From positions 1 to 38,271 of the forward strand of contig CAJQSG010000002.1 in NCBI GenBank assembly GCA_905612525.1: 38,271 nt of DNA. Direction: 5' to 3'. The notes under the pieces are model-generated. The model did not search any database and was not told the origin of the DNA. It saw only the letters and a list, made by a program, of their open reading frames with translations. How positions within the stretch are numbered: position 1 is the stretch's first letter; each line of letters opens with the position of its first letter. This document shows, piece by piece, positions 27,594 through 32,562 of the stretch. Source of the stretch: an uncultured Candidatus Pelagibacter sp. (lineage in GTDB: Bacteria > Pseudomonadota > Alphaproteobacteria > Pelagibacterales > Pelagibacteraceae). Both the position numbers and the translations under genes were made by a program.

Positions 27594-28301
27594 ATGAATT
27601 CAAAAATTTTAGTAACAGGAGGTAATGGAAGATTTGCCACTGTGCTAAAAAAAGAAAATAAAAAATTAAATTTAGTTTTTGCTTCTAAAAAACAGTGTAA
27701 TATTTTAAATTTAAAATCAATTGAGAGTGCTGTTAGAGCATTTAAACCAAAAATTATTTTACATTGTGCCGGATTATCAAGACCTATGGATATTCACTAT
27801 AAAAATATTAAAAAAAGTATAGATATTAATATTATAGGAACGGCCAATATCACGAAAGTGTGTGAGGCAAATAAAATAAAGTTGATATATTTTTCTACTG
27901 GCTATGTTTATGAAGGAAAAAAAGGAAACTACTCAGAGCATGATTCAGTTAAACCGTTTAATAACTATGGCTTGTCGAAATTAGGCGGTGAATGTGCTGT
28001 GTCAATGTATTCTAATTCTTTAATTTTAAGAATCACTATGACTGAAAAACCATTTCTATACAAAACTGCCTATACTAATTTAAAAAGTAATTTTATGTTT
28101 CATGAACAATTGGTAAAAATTTTACCTGAATTAATTAAAAAAAAGGGAATTATAAATGTTGGTGGACCATCACAATCTGTTTATAATTTTGCCAAAAAAA
28201 CCAATCCTAAAGTTATAAAAAGTTATGCAAAAGAAAGACCTAATTTCCCTCTAAATCAAACCATGGATTTAAAAAAATTAAAAAAAATTATTACGTGGTA
28301 G
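27594..28301 (+). CDS. RmlD-like sugar-nucleotide-binding SDR protein (dTDP-4-dehydrorhamnose reductase-like)
   Basis: ILVTGGNGRFATVL, IILHCAGLSRPMDI, FSTGYVYEGKKGNYSEHD, NNYGLSKLGGECAV; final codons lie in the opposite-strand tRNA. Confidence 0.8.
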   Translation: MNSKILVTGGNGRFATVLKKENKKLNLVFASKKQCNILNLKSIESAVRAFKPKIILHCAGLSRPMDIHYKNIKKSIDINIIGTANITKVCEANKIKLIYFSTGYVYEGKKGNYSEHDSVKPFNNYGLSKLGGECAVSMYSNSLILRITMTEKPFLYKTAYTNLKSNFMFHEQLVKILPELIKKKGIINVGGPSQSVYNFAKKTNPKVIKSYAKERPNFPLNQTMDLKKLKKIITW

Positions 28302-28372
28302 CGGGAAGTGGAATCGAACCACTGACCTCAGGCTTATGAGTCCTGCGCTCTAACCGACTGAGCTACCCCGCC
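28296..28372 (-). tRNA. tRNA-Met (CAU anticodon), intact, 3' CCA encoded (copy A)
   Basis: Minus strand GGCGGGGTAGCTCAGTCGGTTAGAGCGCAGGACTCATAAGCCTGAGGTCAGTGGTTCGATTCCACTTCCCGCTACCA; acceptor (with two G-U pairs), D arm and T arm fold; elongator Met vs Ile2(CAU) not decided. Confidence 0.9.
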
Positions 28373-28391
28373 ACTTAATTATCGTTGTTTT

Positions 28392-28420
28392 ATAATAGAT
28401 TTTATTTTCTGTCCAATCAA
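28392..28420 (-). promoter_or_regulatory. sigma70-like promoter of tRNA-Met copy A
   Basis: Minus strand TTGATT - 17 nt - TATTAT, about 20 nt upstream of tRNA position 1. Confidence 0.65.
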
Positions 28421-28440
28421 GTATTTGCCTATTTTTCTAA

Positions 28441-28465
28441 CTCACTGTGCCTATAGTGTGCCAAG
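28441..28465. repeat. 25-bp arm-like motif, A-right
   Basis: ctcactgtgcctatagtgtgccaag; one of five related copies; also forms an inverted repeat with cacagtgag at 28494-28502. Confidence 0.7.
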
Positions 28466-28591
28466 AATACGTGTAGGGAGGTTCCTGCAGACTCACAGTG
28501 AGAAATAGATTTATACGTTTAGAAAACACAATCAAAATCACTAAAGATTTTTCAATAGATCAAAATCCTAAACAGAGTCTAAATGTAATAC

Positions 28592-29401
28592 TTAAAAAGC
28601 TAAATCTGAACTATCAACTTTTATCAATTCTTTACCCTGTACGTTAATCGTACATATCGTGTCAAACTCTTGTTGGGCCTGAATAGCAAAACCGCTATTA
28701 ATATGGATAAATGTATAAAATAATCCCTCACTTTCTTCCATTTCCTCTAAAAATTCATTTATCTCTTCATTTGGACTCTCAAAGCTATTAAAAGTCTTCA
28801 CAACATAGAAGTTCTCTTCGTCTATTAATGTTGTTCCTAAATAATGATCATACGAATAAAGTTTTAATCCCTGAGAAAATTTTTTTAGTTCTTTGTCTGT
28901 TGCAAACAACTTTTTCAACATATTAAGAATTTTTTTAGATTGTTTTTTATCTTCAATTTTAATTGGTAATAAAGTTTTTCCATAAATACTTAATGAGAGA
29001 AATGAATCGGATACCATTTCTTTAAAAAAAGGTTCAAAATTTTTGAATTCTTTTTTAAAATCTTTATCCATATCTGGAGAATAATTTATTTTAACTTTTC
29101 CTTTAGTTAATTTTCCTTTTGAGTTTATCTTAGCATCAATCTTTAGATACATACTTCCATCGTCCCCAAAATTAAAAACACCTTCAGATCTCAATACTTT
29201 AGAGTTAACAACTTTTGAACTGAATATCATGTTATAATCATCAGCATCAGCTTCACATTTTATAGAGTAATTTTCATCAATTTTTATTATATCTGTTTCT
29301 TCAAAAGCTTTTTTTACTGAAATATTTAAATCAGGTTCCTCAGCAAAAGAAGAAGGGTTCAACAACAAACCCAGAACAACAATCCCTAAAATCTTTTTCA
29401 T
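28592..29401 (-). CDS. Secreted/periplasmic hypothetical protein (cassette gene 1)
   Basis: 269-aa ORF; signal peptide MKKILGIVVLGLLLNPSSFAEE shared with 29665-30147. Confidence 0.7.
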   Translation of the reverse strand: MKKILGIVVLGLLLNPSSFAEEPDLNISVKKAFEETDIIKIDENYSIKCEADADDYNMIFSSKVVNSKVLRSEGVFNFGDDGSMYLKIDAKINSKGKLTKGKVKINYSPDMDKDFKKEFKNFEPFFKEMVSDSFLSLSIYGKTLLPIKIEDKKQSKKILNMLKKLFATDKELKKFSQGLKLYSYDHYLGTTLIDEENFYVVKTFNSFESPNEEINEFLEEMEESEGLFYTFIHINSGFAIQAQQEFDTICTINVQGKELIKVDSSDLAF

Positions 29402-29413
29402 GGGAAAGACTTT

Positions 29414-29438
29414 CTCACTGTGTCATGTGTGTGTCAAG
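29414..29438. repeat. 25-bp arm-like motif, B-left
   Basis: ctcactgtgtcatgtgtgtgtcaag. Confidence 0.7.
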
Positions 29439-29484
29439 AAATGTTGAGAAGTGAAATAAGGTACACAGAACAGGAATCCCGACC
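29415..29484 (-). repeat. 70-bp leader repeat (identical by eye to 30161-30230)
   Basis: tcactgtgtcatgtgtgtgtcaagaaatgttgagaagtgaaataaggtacacagaacaggaatcccgacc in both copies. Confidence 0.9.
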
Positions 29485-29536
29485 GCTGACCTTAGGCTTA
29501 TGAGTCCTGCGCTCTAACCGACTGAGCTACCCCGCC
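29462..29536 (-). pseudogene. Partial tRNA-Met copy B: 5' half, D arm and anticodon arm retained; T arm/acceptor 3' side replaced
   Basis: Minus strand ggcggggtagctcagtcggttagagcgcaggactcataagcctaaggtcag then cggtcgggattcctgttctgtg instead of tggttcgattccacttcccgctacca. Confidence 0.88.
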
Positions 29537-29555
29537 ACTTAATTATTGTTGTTTT

Positions 29556-29583
29556 ATAATAGATTTTATTTTTAGTCTATCAA
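29556..29583 (-). promoter_or_regulatory. tRNA-type promoter retained upstream of copy B
   Basis: TTGATA - 16 nt - TATTAT on the minus strand, homologous to copy A. Confidence 0.6.
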
Positions 29584-29603
29584 GTATTTGCGTATTTTCT
29601 TAG

Positions 29604-29628
29604 CTGACTGTGTCCTATGTGTGTCAAG
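29604..29628. repeat. 25-bp arm-like motif, B-right
   Basis: ctgactgtgtcctatgtgtgtcaag. Confidence 0.68.
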
Positions 29629-29664
29629 GATACGTCTTACGAGGTTCCTGCGGACTCTATACTT

Positions 29665-30147
29665 CTATTTTTTTATGTTTGTAAGATATTTCCTTTTACT
29701 GACCCACAAACATTCTCCATAGAATTTAAAATCATCTTTTTTGTACCATGCAGTTCCTGTTAAGTATGGACTAGAATTACGGTCAAATTTTTCTTTATTT
29801 TTATATCTTAAAAGAAAATACTGAAAAGCAAAAGGTGATTTTTTCTTTTTTTTTTTTAACTTTATCTCTAAACCATCTTTAAAATCAACAGAGTCAAAAT
29901 TTTGAGTTTTTACTTTTCCAATTTTATATTGTGAGTTATTTGCAGTGTCTACAAATGCATTTATTGTAACTTCTGATTTTTCTTCATTTATCTTCAAATC
30001 AAAAAAAGCAAACATATTTTTATTTATTAAGGGGTACTTTGATTTCTCAACAGAATGCATGGCACATCTATAATACGCTTCTTCAGATGAATAAACATTT
30101 CCACTTAGCAGTAAACTCAGAACAATAATACCCAGAATTTTTTTCAT
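29665..30147 (-). CDS. Secreted/periplasmic hypothetical protein (cassette gene 2)
   Basis: 160-aa ORF; signal peptide MKKILGIIVLSLLLSGNVYSSEE like that of 28592-29401, body not obviously related. Confidence 0.68.
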   Translation of the reverse strand: MKKILGIIVLSLLLSGNVYSSEEAYYRCAMHSVEKSKYPLINKNMFAFFDLKINEEKSEVTINAFVDTANNSQYKIGKVKTQNFDSVDFKDGLEIKLKKKKKKSPFAFQYFLLRYKNKEKFDRNSSPYLTGTAWYKKDDFKFYGECLWVSKRKYLTNIKK

Positions 30148-30159
30148 TAAAAATATATT

Positions 30160-30184
30160 GTCACTGTGTCATGTGTGTGTCAAG
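30160..30184. repeat. 25-bp arm-like motif, C-left
   Basis: gtcactgtgtcatgtgtgtgtcaag. Confidence 0.7.
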
Positions 30185-30230
30185 AAATGTTGAGAAGTGA
30201 AATAAGGTACACAGAACAGGAATCCCGACC
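30161..30230 (-). repeat. 70-bp leader repeat (partner of 29415-29484)
   Basis: Identical 70-mer by eye. Confidence 0.9.
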
Positions 30231-30282
30231 ACTGACCTCAGGCTTATGAGTCCTGCGCTCTAACCGACTGAGCTACCCCGCC
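30208..30282 (-). pseudogene. Partial tRNA-Met copy C: same replaced 3' half as copy B
   Basis: 57 bp (30228-30284) identical by eye to 28318-28374 of the intact locus, then tcgggattcctgttctgtg replaces the T arm and acceptor. Confidence 0.88.
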
Positions 30283-30301
30283 ACATAATTATTGTTGATT
30301 T

Positions 30302-30330
30302 ATAATAGATATTATTTTTAGTGCAATCAA
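30302..30330 (-). promoter_or_regulatory. tRNA-type promoter retained upstream of copy C
   Basis: TTGATT - 17 nt - TATTAT on the minus strand. Confidence 0.62.
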
Positions 30331-30350
30331 GTATTTGCCCGTTTTCCCTA

Positions 30351-30375
30351 CTCATTGTACCTATAGTGTGCCAAG
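30351..30375. repeat. 25-bp arm-like motif, C-right, with an extra half copy at 30390-30401
   Basis: ctcattgtacctatagtgtgccaag, then tagtgtgccaag. Confidence 0.65.
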
Positions 30376-30422
30376 GATATATGGCTTTTTAGTGTGCCAA
30401 GATTATTATAACGTATAGAAAA

Positions 30423-31094
30423 ATGAGTAAACCAATCAACCTACTAAAACTTTCGTGGATAATTTTCTCTGTTGTATCAGTTGGATTTTTAATATCTTTT
30501 GGAGTAACCAGCTATCAAAGTAAAGTTGTTGATGAGCCTAATTGGATGCTATGTGAGGCAGACAAAGGGTTGAAAAAACCTCAGTATATAAAATTCCATA
30601 ATACAAAAAAGGTTATTTATAATATTTATCAACAGAGGTGGGTAGAGGATATGGCATCTATGGACGTCATTAATTCAAAGGGAAAAGAAGCTAGACCTAC
30701 TATAGAGATACATGAAGATAAGACTCGGTTCACTAAAACTATTTATAAAAGAAAACAGTTTCTTATTTTTGTTTCAGATAAGTATTATGTTTTTTATAAA
30801 GAAATAGACGATAATTTTTTTTGGTCTTCAGAGGTATCTAAAGCAACAGCTCAACATATAATAATAAAAAGAGATGACCTTACTATGCTAGATTACAAAA
30901 ATGAGTGGGTAAAAGCTCTACGTAGAAATAAAAAATATACAGATGTGGTAATAGATAAATTGTTTAAAGAAGCTGATGGTTATTTCAATTCTTATGAGGA
31001 CATTTTATTTTCCAATGGTACAAGTGTAAAAACACAAAGATTGTTAAATGTTTTTCAATGTAAAGAAACAGCAGCTGTTAAAGCTAAAATTTAA
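30423..31094 (+). CDS. Hypothetical protein with N-terminal membrane anchor
   Basis: 223-aa ORF; LLKLSWIIFSVVSVGFLISFGVTSY TM segment. Confidence 0.65.
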   Translation: MSKPINLLKLSWIIFSVVSVGFLISFGVTSYQSKVVDEPNWMLCEADKGLKKPQYIKFHNTKKVIYNIYQQRWVEDMASMDVINSKGKEARPTIEIHEDKTRFTKTIYKRKQFLIFVSDKYYVFYKEIDDNFFWSSEVSKATAQHIIIKRDDLTMLDYKNEWVKALRRNKKYTDVVIDKLFKEADGYFNSYEDILFSNGTSVKTQRLLNVFQCKETAAVKAKI

Positions 31095-31394: not shown

Positions 31395-31880
31395 TTAATC
31401 TCTAAAATTTACAAATTCAATTGGGAGACCAATATCAATGGCCTCGATTGCAGATATTGCTTCTTGAAGATCATCTCTCTTTTTTCCTTCAGCTCTTAAT
31501 TCTTCTCCTTGAATTTTAATCTGTATTTTAAGTTTTAGTTTTTTTATGTCAGAAATAATTTTTTTTGCATTTTCTTGGCTAATACCTTCCTCTAATTCAC
31601 TAACTTGTCTAATGGTTGCACCTGCGGCACTTTCCGAATTTTTAATAACTATTACTCTTGGATCTACTTTTCTTCTTATAAGATGAATTTGTAGTAATTC
31701 ATTTGCTTGTTTTAATTTTAACTCATCTGGCGCTAGCATAGTAATTATCTTATCTTTTCTTTCAATTGAAATATTGAGTCCTTTAAAATCATATCGATTA
31801 CCAATTTCTCTTAAACAATTGGCAAGAGCGTTATCAAATTCTTGATAATTAATTTTACTTATTACATCAAATGATGGCAT
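31395..31880 (-). CDS. yajQ: YajQ family (DUF520) nucleotide-binding protein
   Basis: MPSFDVISKINYQEFDNALANCLREIGNRYDFKG ... IQGEELRAEGKKRDDLQ. Confidence 0.92.
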   Translation of the reverse strand: MPSFDVISKINYQEFDNALANCLREIGNRYDFKGLNISIERKDKIITMLAPDELKLKQANELLQIHLIRRKVDPRVIVIKNSESAAGATIRQVSELEEGISQENAKKIISDIKKLKLKIQIKIQGEELRAEGKKRDDLQEAISAIEAIDIGLPIEFVNFRD

Positions 31881-31932: not shown

Positions 31933-32175
31933 TTAAAATTTAATCTTTTTTAAAAAAATCTGCTTAGCAGTTACTGCTACGATTTTTAGAGTGTTTTCAT
32001 TGACAACATTATTTATCGCTCTTATTCGTATTTCTAATTTGTGTCCATCTAATTTCCAAAAATAGTCATCACAAATAATAATACCATCTTCTTTTAAAAA
32101 TTTAAGAGCATTATTTAAATTTTTTTTCACCTGATAGTATTTATGGTGTCCGTCTATATAAATTATATCAAGAAT
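31933..32175 (-). pseudogene. 5'-truncated SAM-methyltransferase fragment
   Basis: Open frame ILDIIYIDGHHKYYQVKKNLNNALKFLKEDGIIICDDYFWKLDGHK..., preceded by an in-frame TAA; the N-terminal Rossmann half is absent. Confidence 0.65.
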
Positions 32176-32217
32176 TTAGAGTACGTAGAATAAGAGTAAT
32201 GATTAAAGGATAGTTAA

Positions 32218-32272
32218 CACTGACATCAGGTTTATGAATCACGCACTCTAGCCAACATATCTAAACTCCCCC
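32218..32272 (-). pseudogene. Highly decayed tRNA-Met copy D with decayed promoter region
   Basis: cactgacatcaggtttatgaatcacgcactctagccaacatatctaaactccccc-aataattattgttgattt aligns with copy C cactgacctcaggcttatgagtcctgcgctctaaccgactgagctaccccgcc-acataattattgttgattt. Confidence 0.72.
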
Positions 32273-32334
32273 AATAATTATTGTTGATTTGTAAAAGATT
32301 TCTATTTTTATACAATCAGGTTTTGATAATATAA

Positions 32335-32562
32335 TTATCTTATAATTGTTATAAAAATTCCCATAAGACTTACTACCAAAACTCCTAAGCTAAAAAAAAT
32401 AACTTTTTGCTTTATCTCTTCTTTTTTTTCTATTTTAACTCGATTTAGTAATATGTTTATATCAACTTTTATTTTTGGATTAGTATATTGTGATCGAGAT
32501 ATTTTTTTACTTTTAAAGTCTTCATTTATTGATTTATAGTTATAAAAAATATTTCTATGCAT
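32335..32562 (-). CDS. Small hypothetical protein with C-terminal TM
   Basis: 75-aa ORF ending VIFFSLGVLVVSLMGIFITIIR. Confidence 0.45.
   Translation of the reverse strand: MHRNIFYNYKSINEDFKSKKISRSQYTNPKIKVDINILLNRVKIEKKEEIKQKVIFFSLGVLVVSLMGIFITIIR

Follow-up and report, generated by a model that had tools for sequence, protein, structure and literature searches.

The closest described systems to the locus considered here are the CIMEs and, with them, the tandem accretion of ICEs and IMEs (Pavlovic 2004, via PMC5704250). The ssrA islands of Dehalococcoides are arranged in tandem at a single RNA gene, and 15 of them lack integration modules (PMC3146451); the term 'arm-type' does not occur in the text of that paper. 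Among the marine mobile elements that carry cargo are the tycheposons, which are anchored at tRNA genes, encode a tyrosine recombinase and span 4-200 kb, and the VEIMEs, both of which are discussed as satellites in PMC10872708, PMC10803314 and PMC11389934. For SAR11 itself, a survey of the hypervariable regions recorded no attC sites and noted only an integrase, located in HVR2, and tRNA genes flanking HVR4 (PMC2217521), and a literature search on SAR11 phage satellites returned only a review of another subject. How the gene content of SAR11 turns over is still unsettled, and it is on this question that cassettes bordered by arm sites bear.

The window, by which is meant the whole stretch of 38,271 nucleotides analysed from an uncultured Candidatus Pelagibacter sp., contains five short motifs beside a tRNA-Met gene. 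These are read, with a probability of about 0.8, as arm sites of a tyrosine integrase that end three integrase-less cassettes placed in tandem at the tRNA gene and mobilised in trans, a reading in which binding, the foreign integrase and mobility are inferred from sequence.

Motifs and junctions of the tRNA-Met array

The first-pass annotation had proposed five directly oriented 25-bp motifs, each with two TGRCACA-like heptamers on the minus strand at an 11-bp period, as arm sites flanking tRNA cores. An IUPAC pattern of the motif finds exactly five matches at the positions proposed, all in one orientation and with the heptamers phased as described; it has no match in 100 dinucleotide shuffles, and no further copy exists in the 802-kb, 65%-complete source assembly. 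On the minus strand, the sites that point towards a core, termed P, are found at 28441-28465 (junction A, TGGCACA/AGGCACA, 109 bp from the anticodon), 29604-29628 (junction B, TGACACA/GGACACA, 108 bp) and 30351-30375 (junction C, TGGCACA/AGGTACA, 109 bp). The sites that point away, termed P', are at 29414-29438 (B) and 30160-30184 (C), both with two copies of TGACACA at 65 bp from the anticodon. Junctions B and C are hence two-sided and A has the right-hand motif alone, as had been recorded, and the half copy tagtgtgccaag at 30390-30401, also on the minus strand, is present and contributes one extra heptamer. The imperfect heptamers in the P sites of A (AGGCACA) and C (AGGTACA) count against the arm-site reading.

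The designation of the flanked sequences as tRNA cores holds only in part. Core A is an intact tRNA-Met(cat) (28296-28372, minus strand; ARAGORN, Rfam RF00005 at 65.8 bits). Cores B (29482-29536, minus strand, 96% identity) and C (30228-30282, minus strand, 100% identity, with a marginal Rfam tRNA match of 29.3 bits) are not whole, comprising just positions 1-55 of the tRNA-Met and the promoter region upstream of it. This promoter region lies within the P arm of the element at 29539-29589 (minus strand) and belongs to a repeat family, D3, with further copies at 28375-28425 and 30285-30335. That B and C might be decayed whole tRNAs was considered and rejected, their left half (aaatgttgagaagtgaaataaggtacacagaacaggaatcccgacc) being more convincing as an attP P' arm than as a decayed T-arm.

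A fourth copy, D (32218-32324, minus strand, 78% identical to C), lies outside the range that the first-pass annotation covered and has no recognisable P' arm site. Together with its right flank (32217-32461) it aligns with the sequence that precedes the intact tRNA-Met of a relative, L043 (65% over 252 columns, E 1.6e-7), where the 5' side of the tRNA is nearly empty, with 338 bp between the intact gene and an oxidoreductase gene. From this alignment, D most plausibly represents what is left of the ancestral tRNA-Met 5' half and its upstream region. In many relatives the content between the tRNA-Met and its two flanking genes is variable, these flanks being presumably an adenine phosphoribosyltransferase-like gene on one side and an 814-aa oxidoreductase-like gene on the other. 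The source assembly has the look of a Pelagibacter-type SAR11 genome, is AT-rich and shares its tRNA-Met neighbourhood with the Pelagibacter single-cell genome RIS_SAG_29.

The junctions are spaced at 1164, 746 and 1989 bp, giving cassettes of 1.16, 0.75 and 1.99 kb, and the array reads as A (hybrid), cassette 1, B (attP-like), cassette 2, C (attP-like), cassette 3 and D (outer and decayed). This assignment, with D closing the array, relies on the motif geometry, on the integrase-bearing relatives and on the presence of cargo in the integrase slot. Junction A fits a hybrid att site made of the bacterial 3' half and an element-supplied 5' half, promoter and P arm; the earlier labels of hybrid for A and attP-like for B and C are apt.

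Cassette 1 carries a 269-aa predicted secreted protein (MKKILGIVVLGLLLN..., 28592-29401, minus strand) and cassette 2 one of 160 aa (MKKILGIIVLSLLLSG..., 29665-30147, minus strand), which start 17 bp past the P' heptamers of B and C, respectively. The probable cargo of cassette 3 is an ORF call of 223 aa (30423-31094, plus strand). Neither the 269-aa nor the 223-aa product has a Pfam or PADLOC match, and no integrase or transfer gene was seen among the ORFs of at least 80 aa in the array. The interval between C and D also contains a DUF520 (YajQ-type) gene (31395-31880, minus strand) and, at about 31950-32180, what appears by eye to be a truncated methyltransferase.

Heptamer pairs and integrases in relatives

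A scan of 399 genomes of the genus with the exact pattern TGNCACA-N4-YGNCACA gave 80 matches, against one for the reversed pattern used as control. By our own count about 40 of the 80 lie at genes or fragments of tRNA-Met, tRNA-Gly or tRNA-Thr. Roughly 17 are of the type TTGGCACA-N4-TGGCACA and resemble the pairs that flank tmRNA; five loci of this group were read, all flanking the tmRNA 3' core, with the remainder assigned by motif only. A further 17 are two recurrent sequences, with no tRNA nearby in the one example of each that was checked, and six are unassigned.

Since the pattern itself selected the heptamers, their conservation is no evidence; the distances were unselected. In the tRNA group a motif pointing away lies 63-68 bp from the anticodon and one pointing in lies at 107-109 bp, apart from a few at 95-98 or 119, a shift of about one heptamer period. 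The same distances are seen with all three tRNAs (Met, Gly and Thr), whichever way the tRNA is oriented, and the window obeys them at 65 and 65 bp for P' and 109, 108 and 109 bp for P. Part of this constancy may reflect common descent of the arms. A motif spread over genomes without any link to tRNA cores or recombination junctions would have refuted the earlier proposal; as about half of the exact pairs sit at fixed distances from a tRNA anticodon, and many of the others are tmRNA-like, that outcome was not met. The definition of arm sites as repeats distinct from the core and in fixed helical phase on both sides is also satisfied, at 65 and 108 bp and in steps of about 11 bp.

Several further settings of the motif were observed. 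At L208-L215 and L219 pairs of the type TTGGCACA-N4-TGGCACA surround small cassettes beside tmRNA, with the core CGGGGCACCTGGCAACAGAACGCCCC. At L074 (8448-10639) and L235 there are motif copies (TATTGGCACATTCTTGGCACAGAAAGA) for which no tRNA was found, those at L074 sitting among type IV pilin-like genes (GFTLIELLVVVAIIG). At L206 (7740-12368), L073 and L088 the motif occurs as P' before several members of paralogous secreted-protein gene arrays with LILIFSLQSWTKADD-type N-termini, the cores having decayed. In viral contigs the exact motif scan found just two contigs, in unrelated settings, judged to be chance.

The first-pass annotation had also proposed to check whether the motif lies next to tyrosine integrase genes, and in relatives this is what is found. 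Tyrosine integrases of one family, roughly 315-335 aa long, are present in 19 of the 399 genomes, and their sites consist of heptamers in 11- or 12-bp phase, 65-68 bp from the anticodon and directly before the integrase start codon; one site, at L170, is at 78 bp (about 67+11). Elements with the integrase at tRNA-Met are bounded on both sides by TGTCACA pairs, at 68 and 107-108 bp, with one at 95 bp, and a Pelagibacter integrase at the same tRNA-Met has TGACACA heptamers. Other members carry GGTCGCA, GTACTCA, GGGCACA, GATCACA or GGATGCA in the same place, at 65-66 bp. The layout of a heptamer pair followed by an integrase start recurs in 86 contigs, mostly proteobacterial, in which the majority of the frames, though not every one, read as integrases. 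At L342-L421 the pair right before the integrase start is mostly TGGCACA, in Proteobacteria from Pseudomonas to Methylobacterium and Gallionella.

The integrase ATG lies 15-17 bp past P' in the integrase-bearing elements, and most cargo-only elements have their first start codon at 14-17 bp; at two tRNA-Gly P' sites the distance is 117 bp, and some other P' sites are followed by no gene on that strand. As the cargo start occupies the slot of the integrase after P', it is most simply inferred that cargo took the place of the integrase gene in integrase-bearing cassettes and so gave rise to the cargo-only ones. Among the cargo at other loci are a trypsin-like protein (L077) and a type IIG restriction enzyme with its neighbours between a tRNA-Thr fragment and a full tRNA-Thr (L076), and an integrase-bearing element (L162) has a type I restriction operon. 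At L164 (6906-10210, genome G106) an integrase is surrounded by two tRNA-Met 3' halves and two P' sites in inverted orientation, which suggests an inversion or two opposed elements.

The element closest to the window is found in Ca. Pelagibacter RIS_SAG_29, where about 10 kb is inserted at the same tRNA-Met (L431, 8632-19663). The site at its integrase (L390, 4103-5107), CTTGACACACTCATGACACA, is 65 bp from a tRNA-Met fragment and has the heptamers and spacing of the window. Its P arm departs from the 108-bp rule, the nearest heptamers on a reading of the sequence ending about 124 and 144 bp out. The tRNA match of the outermost tRNA-Met fragment ends right after the anticodon loop (CTCATAA), and this loss of match fits a crossover there. 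The element encodes the integrase, an AAA/primase-like protein and a terminase small subunit; no capsid gene was recognised among the scanned ORFs (a subset against PHROGs), the absence being judged from sizes and gene order. From its gene content it is classed as satellite-like, without helper dependence having been shown.

A widespread 318-aa Xer-like tyrosine recombinase (320 aa in the source genome, contig 24, L122) was dismissed as the recombinase because it has only a SAM-like N-terminal domain, mostly has polysaccharide-type genes around it and lacks a motif in its vicinity; it occurs in most genomes with any tyrosine recombinase (L092, L094-L096, L099 and others), and no arm domain was recognised in it. 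The integrase elements L169-L173 were considered as pelagiphages, but their gene content, with integrase and primase-like genes in 4-6 kb (L172 and L173), seems on inspection to suit satellites better. A protein search of viral contigs with one integrase gave no match, and an integrase profile search found distant relatives, mostly at 24-30% identity.

Proposed movement in trans and the alternatives to it

What is it, then, that would move a cassette without an integrase? As the motifs are placed as in the recombinase-bearing relatives, the cassettes probably move by means of a recombinase taken from a virus-satellite-like element. Fundamental to the proposed mechanism is an attP that would run from an inward-pointing P site through about 108 bp to the anticodon, and from there through about 65 bp to an outward-pointing P' site, with the crossover placed in or beside the anticodon loop. 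The anticodon stem-loop is nearly symmetric, so that either half of the tRNA can become duplicated, and the tRNA of the window stays expressible because the element supplies its own promoter and 5' half. Junctions between neighbouring cassettes, such as B and C, would restore attP, and the cassettes, holding cargo in place of the integrase, would most likely depend for excision and integration in trans on the integrase that a related element supplies, for example the satellite-like one at the same tRNA in RIS_SAG_29. The proposal of arm-type sites for a tyrosine recombinase is supported by the identity of the sites, their geometry and the equal layout of the integrase relatives, which the comparison gives directly; no binding data exist, and recombination and current mobility are, like the foreign integrase, deduced from sequence resemblance.

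Of the alternatives, the one that survives best is that the motifs are former arm sites of dead, decaying elements, that is, decayed cis-mobilizable elements that have lost their integrase and undergo no mobilisation in trans. This is possible but doubtful. D, with its missing P' site and low identity to C, and the divergence of B and C mean that the window array may be such a relic, and the family integrase was not found in the source assembly, of which only 65% is represented. Set against decay is the recurrence in many relatives, at several tRNA genes and at tmRNA, of integrase-less cassettes with intact heptamers and diverse cargo, together with the array at L206, which keeps four intact and similar P' sites despite its decayed tRNA cores. 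The argument from intact sites is only suggestive, because the choice of pattern favours them.

It is improbable that the motif serves the cargo genes as promoter or operator and is no recombination site at all, even though the 14-17 bp between P' and the start codon hold for most first cargo genes and integrases alike and the TTGACA within the motif is like a -35 box. The P site, of the same orientation and similar sequence, faces the tRNA, several P' sites have no downstream gene on that strand, and the spacing is tied to the anticodon rather than to genes. A dual role, as arm site and as leader of the integrase or cargo gene, remains possible. Tandem duplication, by homologous recombination, of a unit of tRNA-Met and secreted-protein gene, with the motif as a conserved upstream element of the tRNA, would account for the long repeat shared by the cassettes (D1, 91% identity) and for the signal peptide common to both MKKILGI proteins. 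It is very hard to sustain, however, given that the two cargo proteins are of unequal length and, judged by eye, unlike past the signal peptide, that tRNA-Gly and tRNA-Thr show the layout too, next to unrelated cargo and also where the tRNA runs the other way with respect to the motifs, and that relatives have integrase genes in the same slot.

On the preferred reading of arm-site cassettes moved in trans, the site grammar of heptamer pair, 108 bp, anticodon, 65 bp and heptamer pair allows cassettes to be found by computer without an integrase, ties them to a family of satellite-like elements as candidate helpers, and accounts for 5'-half and 3'-half tRNA insertions by a single machinery. A wider and tentative proposal, held with less than even confidence, is that SAR11 has an integron-like cassette economy, in which satellites mobilise in trans, and perhaps package, minimal units with attP arms at tRNA genes and tmRNA, and these units build the tRNA-flanked variable islands. 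If true, such an economy would be building variable islands in highly streamlined free-living cells from units of one or a few genes that bear only the arms of a satellite-type integrase.

Comparison with described elements

How far do the known systems accommodate these cassettes? Like tycheposons the window cassettes are anchored at a tRNA gene, here tRNA-Met, but on the criteria in PMC10872708 they otherwise fail, with no recombinase and a size of about 0.75-2 kb against 4-200 kb. In relation to the PICI and PICMI satellites (PMC10803314), the RIS_SAG_29 element is alike in its integrase, primase-like gene, terminase small subunit and lack of a capsid gene recognised among the ORFs scanned, whereas it is about 10 kb long with cargo, and AlpA and a helper phage have not been shown for it; the window cassettes differ in having no integrase, primase-like or terminase genes. 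With integron cassettes and CALINs (PMC11389934) they share arrays of gene cassettes without an integrase and presumed mobilisation in trans by a tyrosine recombinase, yet their sites are tRNA-derived attP cores with arm sites and not attC.

The resemblance to the Dehalococcoides ssrA islands lies in tandem stacking and in the missing integration module, those islands differing in their rdhA cargo and their restriction to ssrA (PMC3146451). To judge from PMC5704250, the window units are like CIMEs in being att-flanked, without an integrase and accreted in tandem at one target. The criterion for a CIME, that attL and attR are retained in the absence of integration and transfer genes, is fulfilled at junctions A to D, although D is decayed, with no such gene seen among the ORFs of at least 80 aa. 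As to an origin from an ICE or IME, the cargo sits in the integrase slot of relatives, but those relatives look like satellites and not ICEs. Unlike CIMEs, the units are 0.75-2 kb long with one or a few genes and recur in many genomes, the sampled loci retain intact heptamer pairs, and no link to conjugation was seen. On this comparison the window cassettes are filed as acting like tandem-accreted CIMEs and resembling the ssrA islands, for which no new category appears to be needed.
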